Assembly: GCA_902577525.1 (NCBI GenBank)
Contig: CACGZG010000004.1
Location: forward strand, 46,775 to 110,774
Direction of reading: 5' to 3'
DNA length: 64,000 nucleotides
From: an uncultured Pelagibacteraceae bacterium
Lineage (GTDB): Bacteria; Pseudomonadota; Alphaproteobacteria; Pelagibacterales; Pelagibacteraceae
Below are positions 3 through 5,508 of this stretch, piece after piece. The notes under the pieces were generated by a model that saw only the letters and a list, made by a program, of their open reading frames with translations, was not told the DNA's origin and did no database searches. How positions within the stretch are numbered: the stretch's first letter is position 1; each line of letters begins with the position of its first letter. Position numbers and translations under genes: made by a program.

Positions 3-392
3 TTAAATCGAAGCTTTAATAGCCTCATAAATCAAGTCCTCAGTAGTCTCTCCAATACTTCTATAAACTTCTTTACTACCTTTAAAAATTAATAATGTAG
101 TTTGATATTGTATATCAAATAAATTTGCTATTTCTTTATTAGTTACATCAAACACAAAATATTCAATATTAGAAAATTCAATATCTGATAATTTACCTTC
201 TTTTTTTGCTTTATTCAAAACTTTCATTTGACTTGCACAAGATGAACAATATTTAATCCAGGAACTAACTATCACAATTTTGTTATCAGCTTGAGCTCTA
301 TCAAACAACTTTTTATTAAAAGTTGTTTCTTTTTCCATGGAATTTACACCAAATGAAAATATACAAAAAATAAATATAAATATTTTTTTCAT
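3..392 (-). CDS. Secreted thioredoxin-like protein
   Basis: N-terminal signal-like segment; WIKYCSSCASQMKVL thioredoxin-like CxxC region; LLIFKGSKEVYRSIG. Confidence 0.65.
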   Translation of the reverse strand: MKKIFIFIFCIFSFGVNSMEKETTFNKKLFDRAQADNKIVIVSSWIKYCSSCASQMKVLNKAKKEGKLSDIEFSNIEYFVFDVTNKEIANLFDIQYQTTLLIFKGSKEVYRSIGETTEDLIYEAIKASI

Positions 393-398
393 ATCTAA

Positions 399-713
399 CT
401 ATACAACAAATATTAAAAACCAATAAGAAGCTAATCCTGAAAATATTGTCGCAATTATACTTCTTGAAAAAATTCCAATTAAGGTTGCAATTAATGCTGC
501 CATTATTTTTGGATTATTCTCAATTAAAATTGATCCTGAATCATCTAAAAAAATAGCTGGAAAAATGATTGCTGGAAATATTGCTGGTGGTACATAAGAT
601 AAAACTTGTCTTATTCTATCATTAAACATTTCTTTTTTTATCAACGCTATCATTGAAAATCTCGTTAGATAAGTAATCACACCACAATATATTATTAAAG
701 CCCAATTACTCAT
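399..713 (-). CDS. azlD: AzlD-family branched-chain amino acid transport subunit
   Basis: Small multi-TM protein overlapping AzlC; YLTRFSMIAL and VPPAIFPAIIFPAI motifs. Confidence 0.75.
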   Translation of the reverse strand: MSNWALIIYCGVITYLTRFSMIALIKKEMFNDRIRQVLSYVPPAIFPAIIFPAIFLDDSGSILIENNPKIMAALIATLIGIFSRSIIATIFSGLASYWFLIFVV

Positions 714-1401
714 TCTTTTTAACCGTTCTTGTTAATATCATTGCTGCTAATAAACCTGTTAAACCAGCAACTATTGCATATGCTTTGAAAGGAATATAAT
801 TATATCCAAGTGTAGCAACCAATCCAGAAACAACAATCACAATAACGTTTATGAATTTCCTAAAATCATTAACTAAAAGTGCTAAAAAAGTTAAGGGAAC
901 AGCAAAGCTTAACCCGAGTTTTTCTGGTATCGCTGCACCTAGTATGATTCCTAAAAAAGTAGTTGATTGCCAAATTACCCAACATGTTGCTCCAGCTCCA
1001 ACTAAATGAAAATATCTATTTTGATCTTTATTTTTCTTGAGATACTCATTTGATATTGCGTATGCCTGGTCAATTAAAAAATACGAGATAATAATTTTCC
1101 AAATCAATTTTAAATCTGATAAATGCTCAGATACTACAGCTCCATACAGCAGATGACGTGAATTTACAGCACCAACTGAACTTATAATTACCAAAGAAGA
1201 AGCTCCCCCTGAAAATAATTGTAGAAGAACTATCTGAGAGGCACCGCCAAAAACTATTAAAGACATTCCCATGGTTTCTAATGGACTAAATCCAACATCA
1301 ATTGAAAGAACTCCAAAAATTAGACCAAAAGGAACAACTGGTATCATTAGTGGACTAACATCAATGATACCTTTTAAAAAAACTTTTAGATTACTTTTCA
1401 T
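706..1401 (-). CDS. azlC: AzlC-family transporter
   Basis: PFGLIFGVLS..GFSPLETMGMSLIVFGGASQ motif typical of AzlC; 8-nt overlap with azlD. Confidence 0.85.
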   Translation of the reverse strand: MKSNLKVFLKGIIDVSPLMIPVVPFGLIFGVLSIDVGFSPLETMGMSLIVFGGASQIVLLQLFSGGASSLVIISSVGAVNSRHLLYGAVVSEHLSDLKLIWKIIISYFLIDQAYAISNEYLKKNKDQNRYFHLVGAGATCWVIWQSTTFLGIILGAAIPEKLGLSFAVPLTFLALLVNDFRKFINVIVIVVSGLVATLGYNYIPFKAYAIVAGLTGLLAAMILTRTVKKNE

Positions 1402-1418: not shown

Positions 1419-2480
1419 TTAGAAGCAAACTATATGATCAATATGAATTGGTCTTTTTATACCAAATTTTTCGTCAACTTCATGTTGATGTATGTGATGT
1501 GAATGAACAAATACCGGTATCAAGGTATTACTTGGTGTTTTGAGAGTATAAATAAAGTTAGTTCCTCTAAATTTTCTATCCACTACTTCAAGTTTTAAAT
1601 TACTTCGATCATCATGTTCAAGATCCTCTGGTTGAAGCAAAAGTTGCACATTTGAACCTTTGGGATATTCTTTAATAAAATTACCCTCAATCGTTCCTAA
1701 ATCCCAATTTTCTAAAGTGTTCTTACCAGTCACTTTTGCAGGAATTAATATTCCTCTATTCAAGAAATTTACAACCTCAACAGAATTTGGAAAATGATAA
1801 ACTTTATAAGGATCATCAAATTGTTTCAGTTGTTGATCTAAAATTATTCCACATTTTGATCCTAAATAAAATGCCTCATATGAATCGTGTGTGACTATAA
1901 TTGTTGTAATCTTTAATTGGTTTAAGATTTTTTTTAATCTGACTTGGATTTCTTCTTTAAAACTTTGATCAACATTTGATAAAGGTTCATCTAACAATAG
2001 GAGATCTGGTTGAGTTATTAGAGATCTTGCAAGAGAAGCTCTTTGTGCTTCACCGGCACTGATTTCATGTGGATATTTATTTAGAATGTGAAAGATATCT
2101 AATAAATCTACAATATCTTTTAAAGTAAGTTTTTTTTTATGTTTTTCTTTATTTCTTTCCGAGCCTAATAATATGTTTTTCTCAACAGTGTAATGAGGAA
2201 ACAAGCTATTATCTTGAAATGCAAGTGACACATTTCTATTTTCTGGCTCAACATTATTTTTTTCTGAGGAGATTGTTTTACCATTTAATTTAATTGAACC
2301 TTTTTTAATCTTCTCTAAACCCGCAATTGTTCTTAAAATAGTTGTTTTACCTATTCCAGAAGGTCCCAAAAGGCATATTACATCACCTTCATTTTCTATG
2401 GAAAAGGAAACATTTTTTACTTTGGTTTTGCCACCAACATTAAAATCAACATTTTTAATTTCAAAAAAATTTTTACCCAT
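1419..2480 (-). CDS. fbpC: Iron(III) ABC transporter ATP-binding protein
   Basis: Walker A GPSGIGKTT, signature ISAGEAQRASLARSL, Walker B LLLLDEPLSNVD; adjacent to FbpB/FbpA-type genes. Confidence 0.88.
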   Translation of the reverse strand: MGKNFFEIKNVDFNVGGKTKVKNVSFSIENEGDVICLLGPSGIGKTTILRTIAGLEKIKKGSIKLNGKTISSEKNNVEPENRNVSLAFQDNSLFPHYTVEKNILLGSERNKEKHKKKLTLKDIVDLLDIFHILNKYPHEISAGEAQRASLARSLITQPDLLLLDEPLSNVDQSFKEEIQVRLKKILNQLKITTIIVTHDSYEAFYLGSKCGIILDQQLKQFDDPYKVYHFPNSVEVVNFLNRGILIPAKVTGKNTLENWDLGTIEGNFIKEYPKGSNVQLLLQPEDLEHDDRSNLKLEVVDRKFRGTNFIYTLKTPSNTLIPVFVHSHHIHQHEVDEKFGIKRPIHIDHIVCF

Positions 2481-4092
2481 GGTTATCTCTTAAAATATAT
2501 TTAGATGTAACTATTATAAAAGAAGTTGCAATCAAAATTAAAAATAGTGATGGAACCGCAGCTGCTTCTAACAAATCCTCTGATGCGGAAATGTAGGCTG
2601 TAGTTGCAAAAGTTTCAAAATTGAATGGTCTTAAAATCAAAGTAATTGGCAACTCTCTAATAATTTCTAAAGAAATCAATATAAAAACAAACAATAATGA
2701 ATTTCTTAAAAAAGGAATATGTATGTTCATAAATGTTTTTCTTTTTGAATATCCAAGTAAATAAGAACTTTCATCAACTGATATATTAATTTTTTCATAT
2801 CCTGATTTAATTCCATTAAAAGCTAAAGAATAAAATCTAATAAAATAAACAATAACTAATCCCAATATTGAACCAATAAATACTTTTTTAATTGATAAGA
2901 AACCATAAGTTTTTATCACGCTCTCATCAAACCAAGCGATAAATGTAATAAAGGCAACTGCTAAAATTACACCTGGGATTGCATAGCCTGAGATTGATAA
3001 AGTTGACAAAATATTTAAAGTTTTATCTTTGTTAACTCTATTTCCGTAATTCGAAATAAGAGCAAATATAATTAAAAACAAACTAGATAAAACAACCAAA
3101 TAGAGTGTATTAATTAGAAGTTTAGTTATCTGTAAATCAATCAGGTTTTCTGGAAATTTTATTGTCCAATACACCATTTGAATTAGTGGAAATAAAAAAC
3201 TTAAGAAAAAAACTAAAAAGCAAAATGTGAAAGCCATCAAAGATTTACTACCTGAAAGCTTAATTTTTTGTTTTTGTTTAAATCCACCTCTAGAATTCAT
3301 GTGATATTTAGCCTTTTTTCTTGAAAAATTTTCTAAAACAAAAAGAGCAAATATAAATAAAAGCAAAAAAAAGGATAATTGGTTCGCAAAAGCTAAATCA
3401 TCAAACGCTATCCATGAGTTGTAAATTCCTGTTGTTAAAGTGTTTATTGAAAAAAAATCAACTGCTCCAAATTCTGCAAGTGTTTCCATAGCAACTAATG
3501 ACAGACCTGCAACTATTGCAGGTCTTGCAGCAGGTAAAATAATAGAATACAAAGTTTTAAATTTGGTAAAACCTAAATTTTTTCCTAAATCTATCAAATT
3601 TTGTGGTTGATATAAAAAAGATGCTCTAGCTAAAACATACACATATGCATACAAAGAAAAAGAAATAGAGAGAATTGCTCCGAATAATCCATCAAACTTT
3701 GGAATACTTTGATTGTAATTAGCTTCACCAAATAAACTTTTTAATATAGTGAATGCGGTTCCATAATTTTCAAAAAAAGCAGTCAATGAATAGGCATAAA
3801 TATAAGGTGGAACTGCAAAAGAAAGTATCAATGCCCATTTGAAAAAATTACTAAATGGAAATTCAAAAAAAGATACTAAGTATGCTGATCCAGTACCAAT
3901 CAAAAAAGTTAATATTAATACACTAAATAATAAAATTAATGAATTTAATATATACTCTACTAGAAAAGTGTCTTTTAAAACTTGAAAATAGTTAGAAGTA
4001 TTTTCAAAAAAACTTGAAAAGACTGTTAAAATTGGAATTAGAACAAAAACAGAAATAAAAAAAGAAGATATATACCAAAAATTTATTCTCAT
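2473..4092 (-). CDS. fbpB: Iron(III) ABC transporter permease (duplicated permease domain)
   Basis: 539 aa, multi-TM, EAA-like loops in both halves; overlaps fbpC. Confidence 0.88.
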   Translation of the reverse strand: MRINFWYISSFFISVFVLIPILTVFSSFFENTSNYFQVLKDTFLVEYILNSLILLFSVLILTFLIGTGSAYLVSFFEFPFSNFFKWALILSFAVPPYIYAYSLTAFFENYGTAFTILKSLFGEANYNQSIPKFDGLFGAILSISFSLYAYVYVLARASFLYQPQNLIDLGKNLGFTKFKTLYSIILPAARPAIVAGLSLVAMETLAEFGAVDFFSINTLTTGIYNSWIAFDDLAFANQLSFFLLLFIFALFVLENFSRKKAKYHMNSRGGFKQKQKIKLSGSKSLMAFTFCFLVFFLSFLFPLIQMVYWTIKFPENLIDLQITKLLINTLYLVVLSSLFLIIFALISNYGNRVNKDKTLNILSTLSISGYAIPGVILAVAFITFIAWFDESVIKTYGFLSIKKVFIGSILGLVIVYFIRFYSLAFNGIKSGYEKINISVDESSYLLGYSKRKTFMNIHIPFLRNSLLFVFILISLEIIRELPITLILRPFNFETFATTAYISASEDLLEAAAVPSLFLILIATSFIIVTSKYILRDNHG

Positions 4093-4118
4093 AATTTATA
4101 ATCCGCTTTATAAAAATG

Positions 4119-4206
4119 AAAAGTATTTGTGTCTACGCTAGGAGGAAGGAGACATCTTGCCTAATAAACGTAGACACCCAGAAAAAATCAAAAATTAAAT
4201 ACTTTT
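4119..4206 (-). promoter_or_regulatory. Intercistronic structured RNA element between fbpA/sORF and fbpB
   Basis: Exact inverted repeat: AAAAGTATTTGTGTCTACG (4119-4137) matches CGTAGACAC (4169-4177) plus AAATACTTTT (4197-4206), with a 19-nt one-sided bulge; 19 paired positions in total. Confidence 0.75.
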
Positions 4207-4337
4207 AGGATATGCGGAACCTCCTTTGTTTTAATCTTTGAAAATTTTCTATCATTCATTCTTTTATTGATCTTTTCACACTCTAAATTACATGGGGAAC
4301 ATGCTTTAGAAGATTTATTTAAATCAATATCAGACAT
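4188..4337 (-). CDS. 49-aa Cys-containing small ORF (CxxCxxxC)
   Basis: Read by hand: MSDIDLNKSSKACSPCNLECEKINKRMNDRKFSKIKTKEVPHILKVFNF*; co-directional between fbpA and fbpB; absent from the supplied ORF track (below its length cutoff). Confidence 0.5.
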   Translation of the reverse strand: MSDIDLNKSSKACSPCNLECEKINKRMNDRKFSKIKTKEVPHILKVFNF

Positions 4338-4362
4338 AAATTTCTTTTTTACTTTCACAATG

Positions 4363-5391
4363 TTACTTCCAACCTGCAGCTGTCATTACTTCAACAGCGG
4401 CTGCTTGATTTTTTCCATAAGAGGCTAGCTTAGTTTTCATATCCTGTTTGAAATCTAATCCTAGATTATTTACAACTAATGGACTTGGTGAAACACCATC
4501 GATCATTGGAAACTCAAAAGTATTATTAGTAAAGTGCTCTTGAGACTGTGGAGTCAATAAAAACTCTACAAGTTTAATGGCATTAGCTTTATTAGGTGCA
4601 CCTTTTACTAAAGCTGCACAACTCACATTCATGTGTGTTCCTCTATCGTTTTGATTAGGAAAGAAAGCTTTTACTTTTTTCGCTGCTTCTTGTTGTTCTG
4701 CACCTTTCTTACCTGATAACATAAGAGCTAAATAATAAGTGTTAGCTACTGCAATGTCTGCTTCACCAGCTGCTACTGCCATTATTTGTGCTCTATCATT
4801 GCCAGTTGGTGTTCTAGCCATATTAGCGACAACCCCTTCGGCCCATTTAGCTGTTGCAGCTTTTCCGTTATTTTTAATTAATGATGCTACTAGTGATTTA
4901 TTATAAATGTTACTAGATTTTCTAATTACTAATCTACCTCTCCATTTAGGATCAGCCAGACCTTCATAAGTCATTCCAGATAATTCAGCGCCTGTAACTC
5001 TTTCAGGTGAATAATAAATTATCCTAGCTCTTTTTGCGATTCCTACCCATTTGCTAGTTCTAAAGCTTGCAGGAACAGCATCTTTAATTGCTTTAGATGT
5101 TAAGCCACCTTGAAGAGTGCCTTTTGTATCCATAGCTCCACATCTTCCTGCATCTGCGGTGATATAAAGATCAGCGGAAGAGTCTGCACCCTCACTTATT
5201 ATTCTTTTCTCTAAAGCACCTGATTTTCCGTTTATCAAATTAACTTTGATACCAGTCATATTTGTAAACTTAGAATAAAGCTCTCCATCAGCTTTATAAT
5301 GCCTTGCATTAAAAACATTGACTTCGTTTGCAACTGCAAAAGTTGATAAAAACAAAGATGTAATCAATGTCAAAATTGATATTTTTTTCAT
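4363..5391 (-). CDS. fbpA: Iron(III) ABC transporter substrate-binding protein (FbpA/FutA/IdiA type)
   Basis: Signal peptide; VNVFNARHYKADGELYSKFTNMTGIKVNLINGKS; periplasmic binding fold with NTYYLALM near C-terminal half. Confidence 0.9.
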   Translation of the reverse strand: MKKISILTLITSLFLSTFAVANEVNVFNARHYKADGELYSKFTNMTGIKVNLINGKSGALEKRIISEGADSSADLYITADAGRCGAMDTKGTLQGGLTSKAIKDAVPASFRTSKWVGIAKRARIIYYSPERVTGAELSGMTYEGLADPKWRGRLVIRKSSNIYNKSLVASLIKNNGKAATAKWAEGVVANMARTPTGNDRAQIMAVAAGEADIAVANTYYLALMLSGKKGAEQQEAAKKVKAFFPNQNDRGTHMNVSCAALVKGAPNKANAIKLVEFLLTPQSQEHFTNNTFEFPMIDGVSPSPLVVNNLGLDFKQDMKTKLASYGKNQAAAVEVMTAAGWK

Positions 5392-5421
5392 TTATAACTC
5401 CATTTTCTTCCGCATGATTTA

Positions 5422-5460
5422 TTGAGAATGATAACTATTCTCAATGAGAATGATTATCAA
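5422..5460. promoter_or_regulatory. Fur-box-like operator upstream of fbpA
   Basis: TTGAGAATGATAACTATTCTCAATGAGAATGATTATCAA: nested inverted repeats (TTGAGAAT/ATTCTCAA; TTCTCAtTGAGAA; TGATAA/TTATCA), resembling tandem Fur hexamers. Confidence 0.7.
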
Positions 5461-5508
5461 TCGCAACAATGTCGCACTATCTAACTAATTTAATGAATTT
5501 TAAGGAAA

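Follow-up and report, generated by a model that had tools for sequence, protein, structure and literature searches.

SAR11 are the most abundant bacteria of the ocean, over much of which iron is growth-limiting, and the iron-binding protein SfuC/FbpA is a proposed iron-stress marker in this group. What lies between the gene for this protein and that for its permease partner, and could it set the amounts in which the two are made? The question bears on how cells with such minimal genomes come to have binding protein in excess, and on the divergence of proteome and transcriptome under iron stress.

Organization of the iron-transporter operon

The window (the whole 64,000-nt stretch of DNA analysed here) originated from a SAR11 genome of 1.14 Mb that is 90% complete. 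Its minus strand carries fbpA, a small gene, fbpB and fbpC in this order, behind Fur-box-like repeats (GATAATCATTCTCATTGAGAATAGTTATC; 5416-5463) that lie upstream of fbpA and are kept in relatives. The fbpA/sfuC gene (4363-5391) encodes a 342-aa iron(III)-binding periplasmic protein (SBP_bac_8, 9e-17), and its orthologues in 16 further genomes showed 57-86% identity. The fbpB/sfuB permease (2473-4092) and fbpC/sfuA ATPase (1419-2480) genes were assigned from open reading frames and protein-family matches. The operon corresponds to the sfuC-sfuB-sfuA cluster of HTCC1062; genome G211 was taken as HTCC1062, since the coordinates of its sfuC directly adjoin the intergenic region given in Meyer 2009 (PMC2704228). 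Many of the genomes compared are assemblies from single cells or metagenomes and are incomplete.

Thioredoxin-like, AzlD-like and AzlC-like genes follow fbpC (3-1401, minus strand); SAR11_1235 (azlC) and SAR11_1233 were iron-induced in HTCC1062 as well (PMC2864753). The 5'UTR of fbpA contains AUGCGGAA (5408-5415, minus strand), which is kept in many genomes, often as a tiny frame reading MRKN-stop. In the window it is exactly complementary over 8 nt to UUCCGCAU in the small gene, with inconsistent co-conservation. Pairing of the two was rejected, since the 5'UTR element is absent from many genomes that keep the small-gene motif, and a second copy of UUCCGCAU, in fbpB, was rejected as not conserved.

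A small-protein gene follows fbpA

The small gene (4188-4358, minus strand) starts with GTG at 4358, ends with TGA at 4188-4190 and encodes 56 amino acids with a C-x2-C-x3-C motif. An earlier note on this DNA had proposed a 49-aa frame from an ATG at 4337; the gene proved real and its frame conserved, but this start was wrong. The conserved start is GTG 4358, located 4 nt after the fbpA stop, and the inner ATG reads ATA in two near relatives (L002 and L004). An upstream ATG is the sole start in 39 loci, and a start (ATG, GTG or TTG) just after the fbpA stop, or overlapping it (TAATG), is general among relatives.

Searching with the 49-aa query at E <= 1 gave a match in 143 of 201 genus genomes (27 of 29 among the good ones); the majority of the matches are strong, and a minority, close to the threshold, are due to chance. 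When the order was searched with a profile (E <= 0.01), the gene was recovered from 100 of 150 good genomes, all within three genera of one family; relatives are spread across the genus itself, and two more genera of that family have them as well. Among 210 loci fetched around the small gene or around the nearest fbpA genes, all 210 contained it, and the next gene downstream by tblastn was fbpB in 183 and a peroxiredoxin-like gene in 24, which together account for 207 of the 210. The frame, whose conservation and dN/dS the earlier note had proposed to check, is kept in relatives; dN/dS is about 0.37, indicating purifying selection, and both other frames are interrupted by stops in all 133 distinct sequences. 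On these comparative grounds, the fbpA-fbpB interval of SAR11 contains a genuine, hitherto overlooked gene for a 56-aa small protein. In locus L242, a deletion truncates the gene and fuses it to a peroxiredoxin-like remnant, and an apparent frameshift was seen in genome G213 (L252).

No Pfam or NCBIfam family matched the small protein over its curated cut-off. AlphaFold predicted two helices (residues 21-33 and 44-53) with modest confidence (pLDDT 74). C20 and C23 were invariant in a 22-sequence sample. The CxxCxxxC motif highlighted in the earlier note is present in the window, but its third Cys is replaced by V in some relatives and by A in genus g5; judging from these replacements, the protein can do without it. 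A role in metal or Fe-S binding, as the earlier note suggested for the peptide, is putative.

A covarying hairpin lies between the first and second cistrons

Directly after the small-gene stop lies hairpin P2 (4129-4177, minus strand), with arms at 4167-4177 and 4129-4139 and a 27-nt loop. The stem arms described earlier (AAAAGTATTT/AAATACTTTT and GTGTCTACG/CGTAGACAC) were located at their positions, and the inner stem, previously given as 9 bp, extends to 11 bp. A 111-nt piece folded at -24.4 kcal/mol (z -3.5), with 0 of 200 shuffles folding equally well, and perfect stems of at least 9 bp with at least 4 G/C numbered only 5 in the window.

Covariation was assessed on an alignment built without structural information. 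In the close set, 91.5% of the stem cells were paired, 37 cells carried double changes (12.4 in shuffled and at most 10 in slid controls), and compensatory changes occurred at 7 of 10 pairs, which answers in the affirmative the earlier note's question about covariation in the inner stem. Each of the 209 loci searched had a hairpin of 8 bp or more; because that search uses pairing to find the stem, it describes presence, and the structure-free alignment is the unbiased test. Between clades, the stems were replaced completely (GTGTCTACG, GTGTTCAAG, GTGCCCACA and AGTGTCCAC), with the partner arms following. As far as the alignments can tell, it is the pairing of P2, rather than its sequence, that is evolutionarily maintained. 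Loop size varied from stable tetraloops up to 40 nt, as a role residing in the stem would predict. The hairpin persists between fbpA and fbpB in HTCC1062, G082 and G012, which are without the small gene, so the peptide is not needed for its role. No Rfam family scored over its gathering cut-off (best 20.5 versus 47 bits), and GUGYYC..GRRCAC was rejected as a general SAR11 signature, with a single other match in the window.

The loop motif AAGATGTCTCCTT (4146-4158, minus strand) hardly varies within the close clade, in which the stem turns over. It is single-copy in its own genome, and 16 of 20 genus matches were at the fbp locus; the remaining matches fell inside open reading frames, and a dispersed element was rejected. 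UCUCCUU was present in 77 of 209 P2 loops. A second hairpin with the same loop motif (CUGUUGAAAGAGUGUUCA..CAAGAUGUCUCCUUA..UGAACACUCUUUGAACAG) follows the small gene in L007, L039, L052, L055, L081 and L092, where a peroxiredoxin-like gene is inserted between this hairpin and fbpB; in all, 13 loci have a second hairpin and 24 have the peroxiredoxin-like gene next. In genus g5 (L245-L249), a long hairpin of another kind (AATTTCCCTGGTT..AACCAGGGAATT), whose loop is conserved (ATTCTACACTCAAGCCGC), separates a divergent small gene from fbpB; L248 lacks this hairpin.

Nucleotide-level constraint within the small gene

Constraint at the nucleotide level covers the last third of the small gene. Pro28 is encoded by CCG in all 110 distinct sequences, versus 4.2% in fbpA of relatives, and the synonymous pS of codons 25-33 in close pairs was 0.095 versus 0.250 upstream. 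The constrained AAGGAGGTTCCGCATATCCT (4207-4226, minus strand) is the predicted tip (stem AGGA/UCCU, loop GGUUCCGCAUA) of an AU-rich hairpin, P1 (4179-4251, minus strand), which fold prediction places across the small-gene end and a U-rich tail. A P1-like fold was predicted in most of 9 sequences examined, and covariation neither supports nor refutes it. Just ahead of fbpB lies a small hairpin, P3 (UUUAUAA-AGCGGA-UUAUAAA; 4095-4114, minus strand), identified by folding and near-invariant in alignment A3. The Shine-Dalgarno-like GCGGA of fbpB (4102-4106) sits in its loop, and folding of the window and of relatives placed GCGGA within the hexaloop GGCGGA between UUAUAA arms. A contact between the P1 and P3 loops (UCCGC/GCGGA) would comprise 5 bp; the same complementarity (CCGC/GCGGA) as an ordinary nested helix was rejected at a partition-function probability of 0, which leaves loop-loop contact alone as possible.

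A candidate barrier favouring binding protein over permease

We consider the best explanation, with a probability of roughly 55%, to be a translationally coupled fbpA-small gene unit followed by an intercistronic 3'-end or attenuation hairpin that lowers fbpBC. Given its start next to or overlapping the fbpA stop, the small gene would be translated together with fbpA and should likewise be co-induced when iron is limiting. P2 would act as an intercistronic barrier or 3'-end protector at which part of the transcripts end or get processed. The fbpA-small gene part would thereby be stabilised, leaving binding protein and small protein in excess over permease and ATPase; the hairpin probably yields far more binding protein than channel. 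In lineages whose loop is complementary to the fbpB ribosome-binding site, fbpB translation may additionally be held down.

Under iron limitation in HTCC1062, mRNA rose 16-fold for sfuC, 10.4-fold for sfuB and 5-fold for sfuA, and SfuC protein rose 27-fold (PMC2864753). This microarray gradient, the source of all expression claims here, is one of fold induction, not stoichiometry, in one isolate that is without the small gene. A barrier or 3'-end protector is favoured because of this falling induction, the position of P2 between the first and second cistron of one operon, and the selection on its stem pairing. Of 139 distinct hairpins, 35 (about a quarter) had 5 or more U among the 8 nt that follow.

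Alternative explanations

Masking of the fbpB ribosome-binding site by an upstream loop is unlikely, though a serious possibility. In the window lineage, the P1 loop UCCGC in the small gene would kiss the P3 loop GCGGA, and a ribosome reading the small-gene end would melt P1 and free fbpB; the counterpart in other lineages would be a direct pairing of the P2 loop UUACCC with a GGGUAA Shine-Dalgarno sequence. All 112 genomes with a GCGGA Shine-Dalgarno keep TYCGC in the small gene, whereas the GGGUAA genomes have a complementary P2 loop in 23 of 23 cases and TYCGC in 0 of 23, a suggestive reciprocity across genomes. The strong synonymous constraint on CCG and the recurrence of the P1 and P3 folds point the same way, as do exact complements of 12 nt in L073 (loop UUGUCUCCUUAA of the second hairpin and fbpB Shine-Dalgarno UUAAGGAGACAA), 9 nt in L054, 8 nt in L031, L184 and L252, and 7 nt in HTCC1062. 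However, the tree offers only 2-4 independent contrasts, which are not significant; 48 genomes keep TYCGC without a GCGGA Shine-Dalgarno; and pairing of the P2 loop with the ribosome-binding site does not occur in the window lineage (p about 0.4), nor did it distinguish own from swapped partners genus-wide (p=0.28). The kissing partners UCCGC and GCGGA are invariant and therefore allow no covariation test. Slightly less likely, the small-gene end and P2/P3 may form one composite RNA regulator, with the P1 loop UCCGC, encoded by the fixed rare proline codon, kissing GCGGA, and UUACCC pairing with GGGUAA via P2 elsewhere. If so, translation of a tiny cysteine protein would decide permease synthesis, and other SAR11 lineages would have swapped the P1 contact for a P2 loop and a different ribosome-binding site.

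A plain intrinsic terminator with read-through is improbable. Several relatives (L141, L143 and L170) have perfect U-tracts, but the tract is not conserved: in the window, the stem is followed by AAATACTTTTC instead, and a terminator scan of the operon strand gave none. As the window has no U-tract and those elsewhere vary, we make no claim for a canonical terminator. We regard as more doubtful still a small RNA that would be freed from the 3' end to act in trans, with the UCUCCUU loop as its CcsR-like (cuckoo) anti-Shine-Dalgarno seed, and contribute to translation shutdown under iron limitation. The loop motif is kept while the stem turns over, the small gene with anti-Shine-Dalgarno-loop hairpins resembles CcaF1-CcsR (PMC10253847), and the proteome fell 59% under iron limitation without a matching mRNA change (PMC2864753). 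Yet the motif is absent from many lineages and from HTCC1062, in which the shutdown was measured, and AAGGAGACA, its exact complement, is found at 6 genomic sites, once opposite the loop itself and never clearly at a conserved Shine-Dalgarno, so that trans targets of the loop were rejected. Least probable, and very unlikely, is the switch proposed in the earlier note, in which ribosomes finishing the small gene would disrupt an outer stem and the CUCCUUCCUCC loop would alternate between its own loop and AAGGAGG in the small gene. The outer stem exists (4119-4206, minus strand; arms 4197-4206 and 4119-4128), as do both motifs, with 7 bp possible; the small-gene AAGGAG and loop CUCCU co-occur (44/25 versus 26/58), in counts that ignore relatedness. 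Nevertheless, no double change was found at any outer-stem pair, the 5' arm being there because of the codons for K-V-F, and there are lineages with these codons preserved that have no 3' arm. Nor did co-evolution support the loop pairing: own and swapped partners did not differ significantly over 36 lineages (p=0.09), and 25 distinct cases have AAGGAG in the small gene and a loop without CUCCU.

Against the favoured intercistronic barrier or 3'-end protector stand the window stem without a proper U-tract, at which no terminator was called, and the loop conservation in the window clade (AAGWTGTCTCCTT), which exceeds what pure stem function explains. Loci L243 and L256 (G205) also lack both the small gene and the hairpin, which are therefore dispensable. 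The tuning of permease against binding protein that the earlier note envisaged is plausible for a selected stem in an iron-transporter operon, but not by way of its outer-stem switch. With this locus, the most abundant marine bacteria present a cis element concrete enough to be tested and a small-protein family that lacks annotation.

Comparison with known systems

Candidate structured RNAs of P. ubique, from the same organism group, were described in Meyer 2009, where the candidate at the sfu locus is the region upstream of sfuC (SAR11_1238/1239); the fbpA-fbpB hairpin and small gene are not among the candidates in the available part of that paper (PMC2704228). Like the alphaproteobacterial CIN1/cuckoo arrangement (CcaF1 plus CcsR), the SAR11 locus has a small gene followed by one or more hairpins, whose loop is a candidate anti-Shine-Dalgarno sequence, and some relatives have two hairpins in series. 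Unlike that arrangement, the SAR11 locus is embedded in an ABC operon, and kinship of the small protein with DUF1127 was rejected, DUF1127 being found in 0 of 41 genomes. The SAR11 loop is UCUCCUU, whereas the cuckoo loop is CCUCCUCCC.

The malE-malF REP is an intercistronic mRNA-stabilising hairpin. An alphaproteobacterial precedent is the hairpin of the puf operon, as cited in PMC10253847. As in puf (Rhodobacter) and malE-malF, the SAR11 hairpin lies after a highly expressed first cistron and before a low-expressed membrane partner. Unlike these, P2, whose effect is putative, covaries, occurs in a single copy, comes after a small gene and has conserved loops that are specific to clades.
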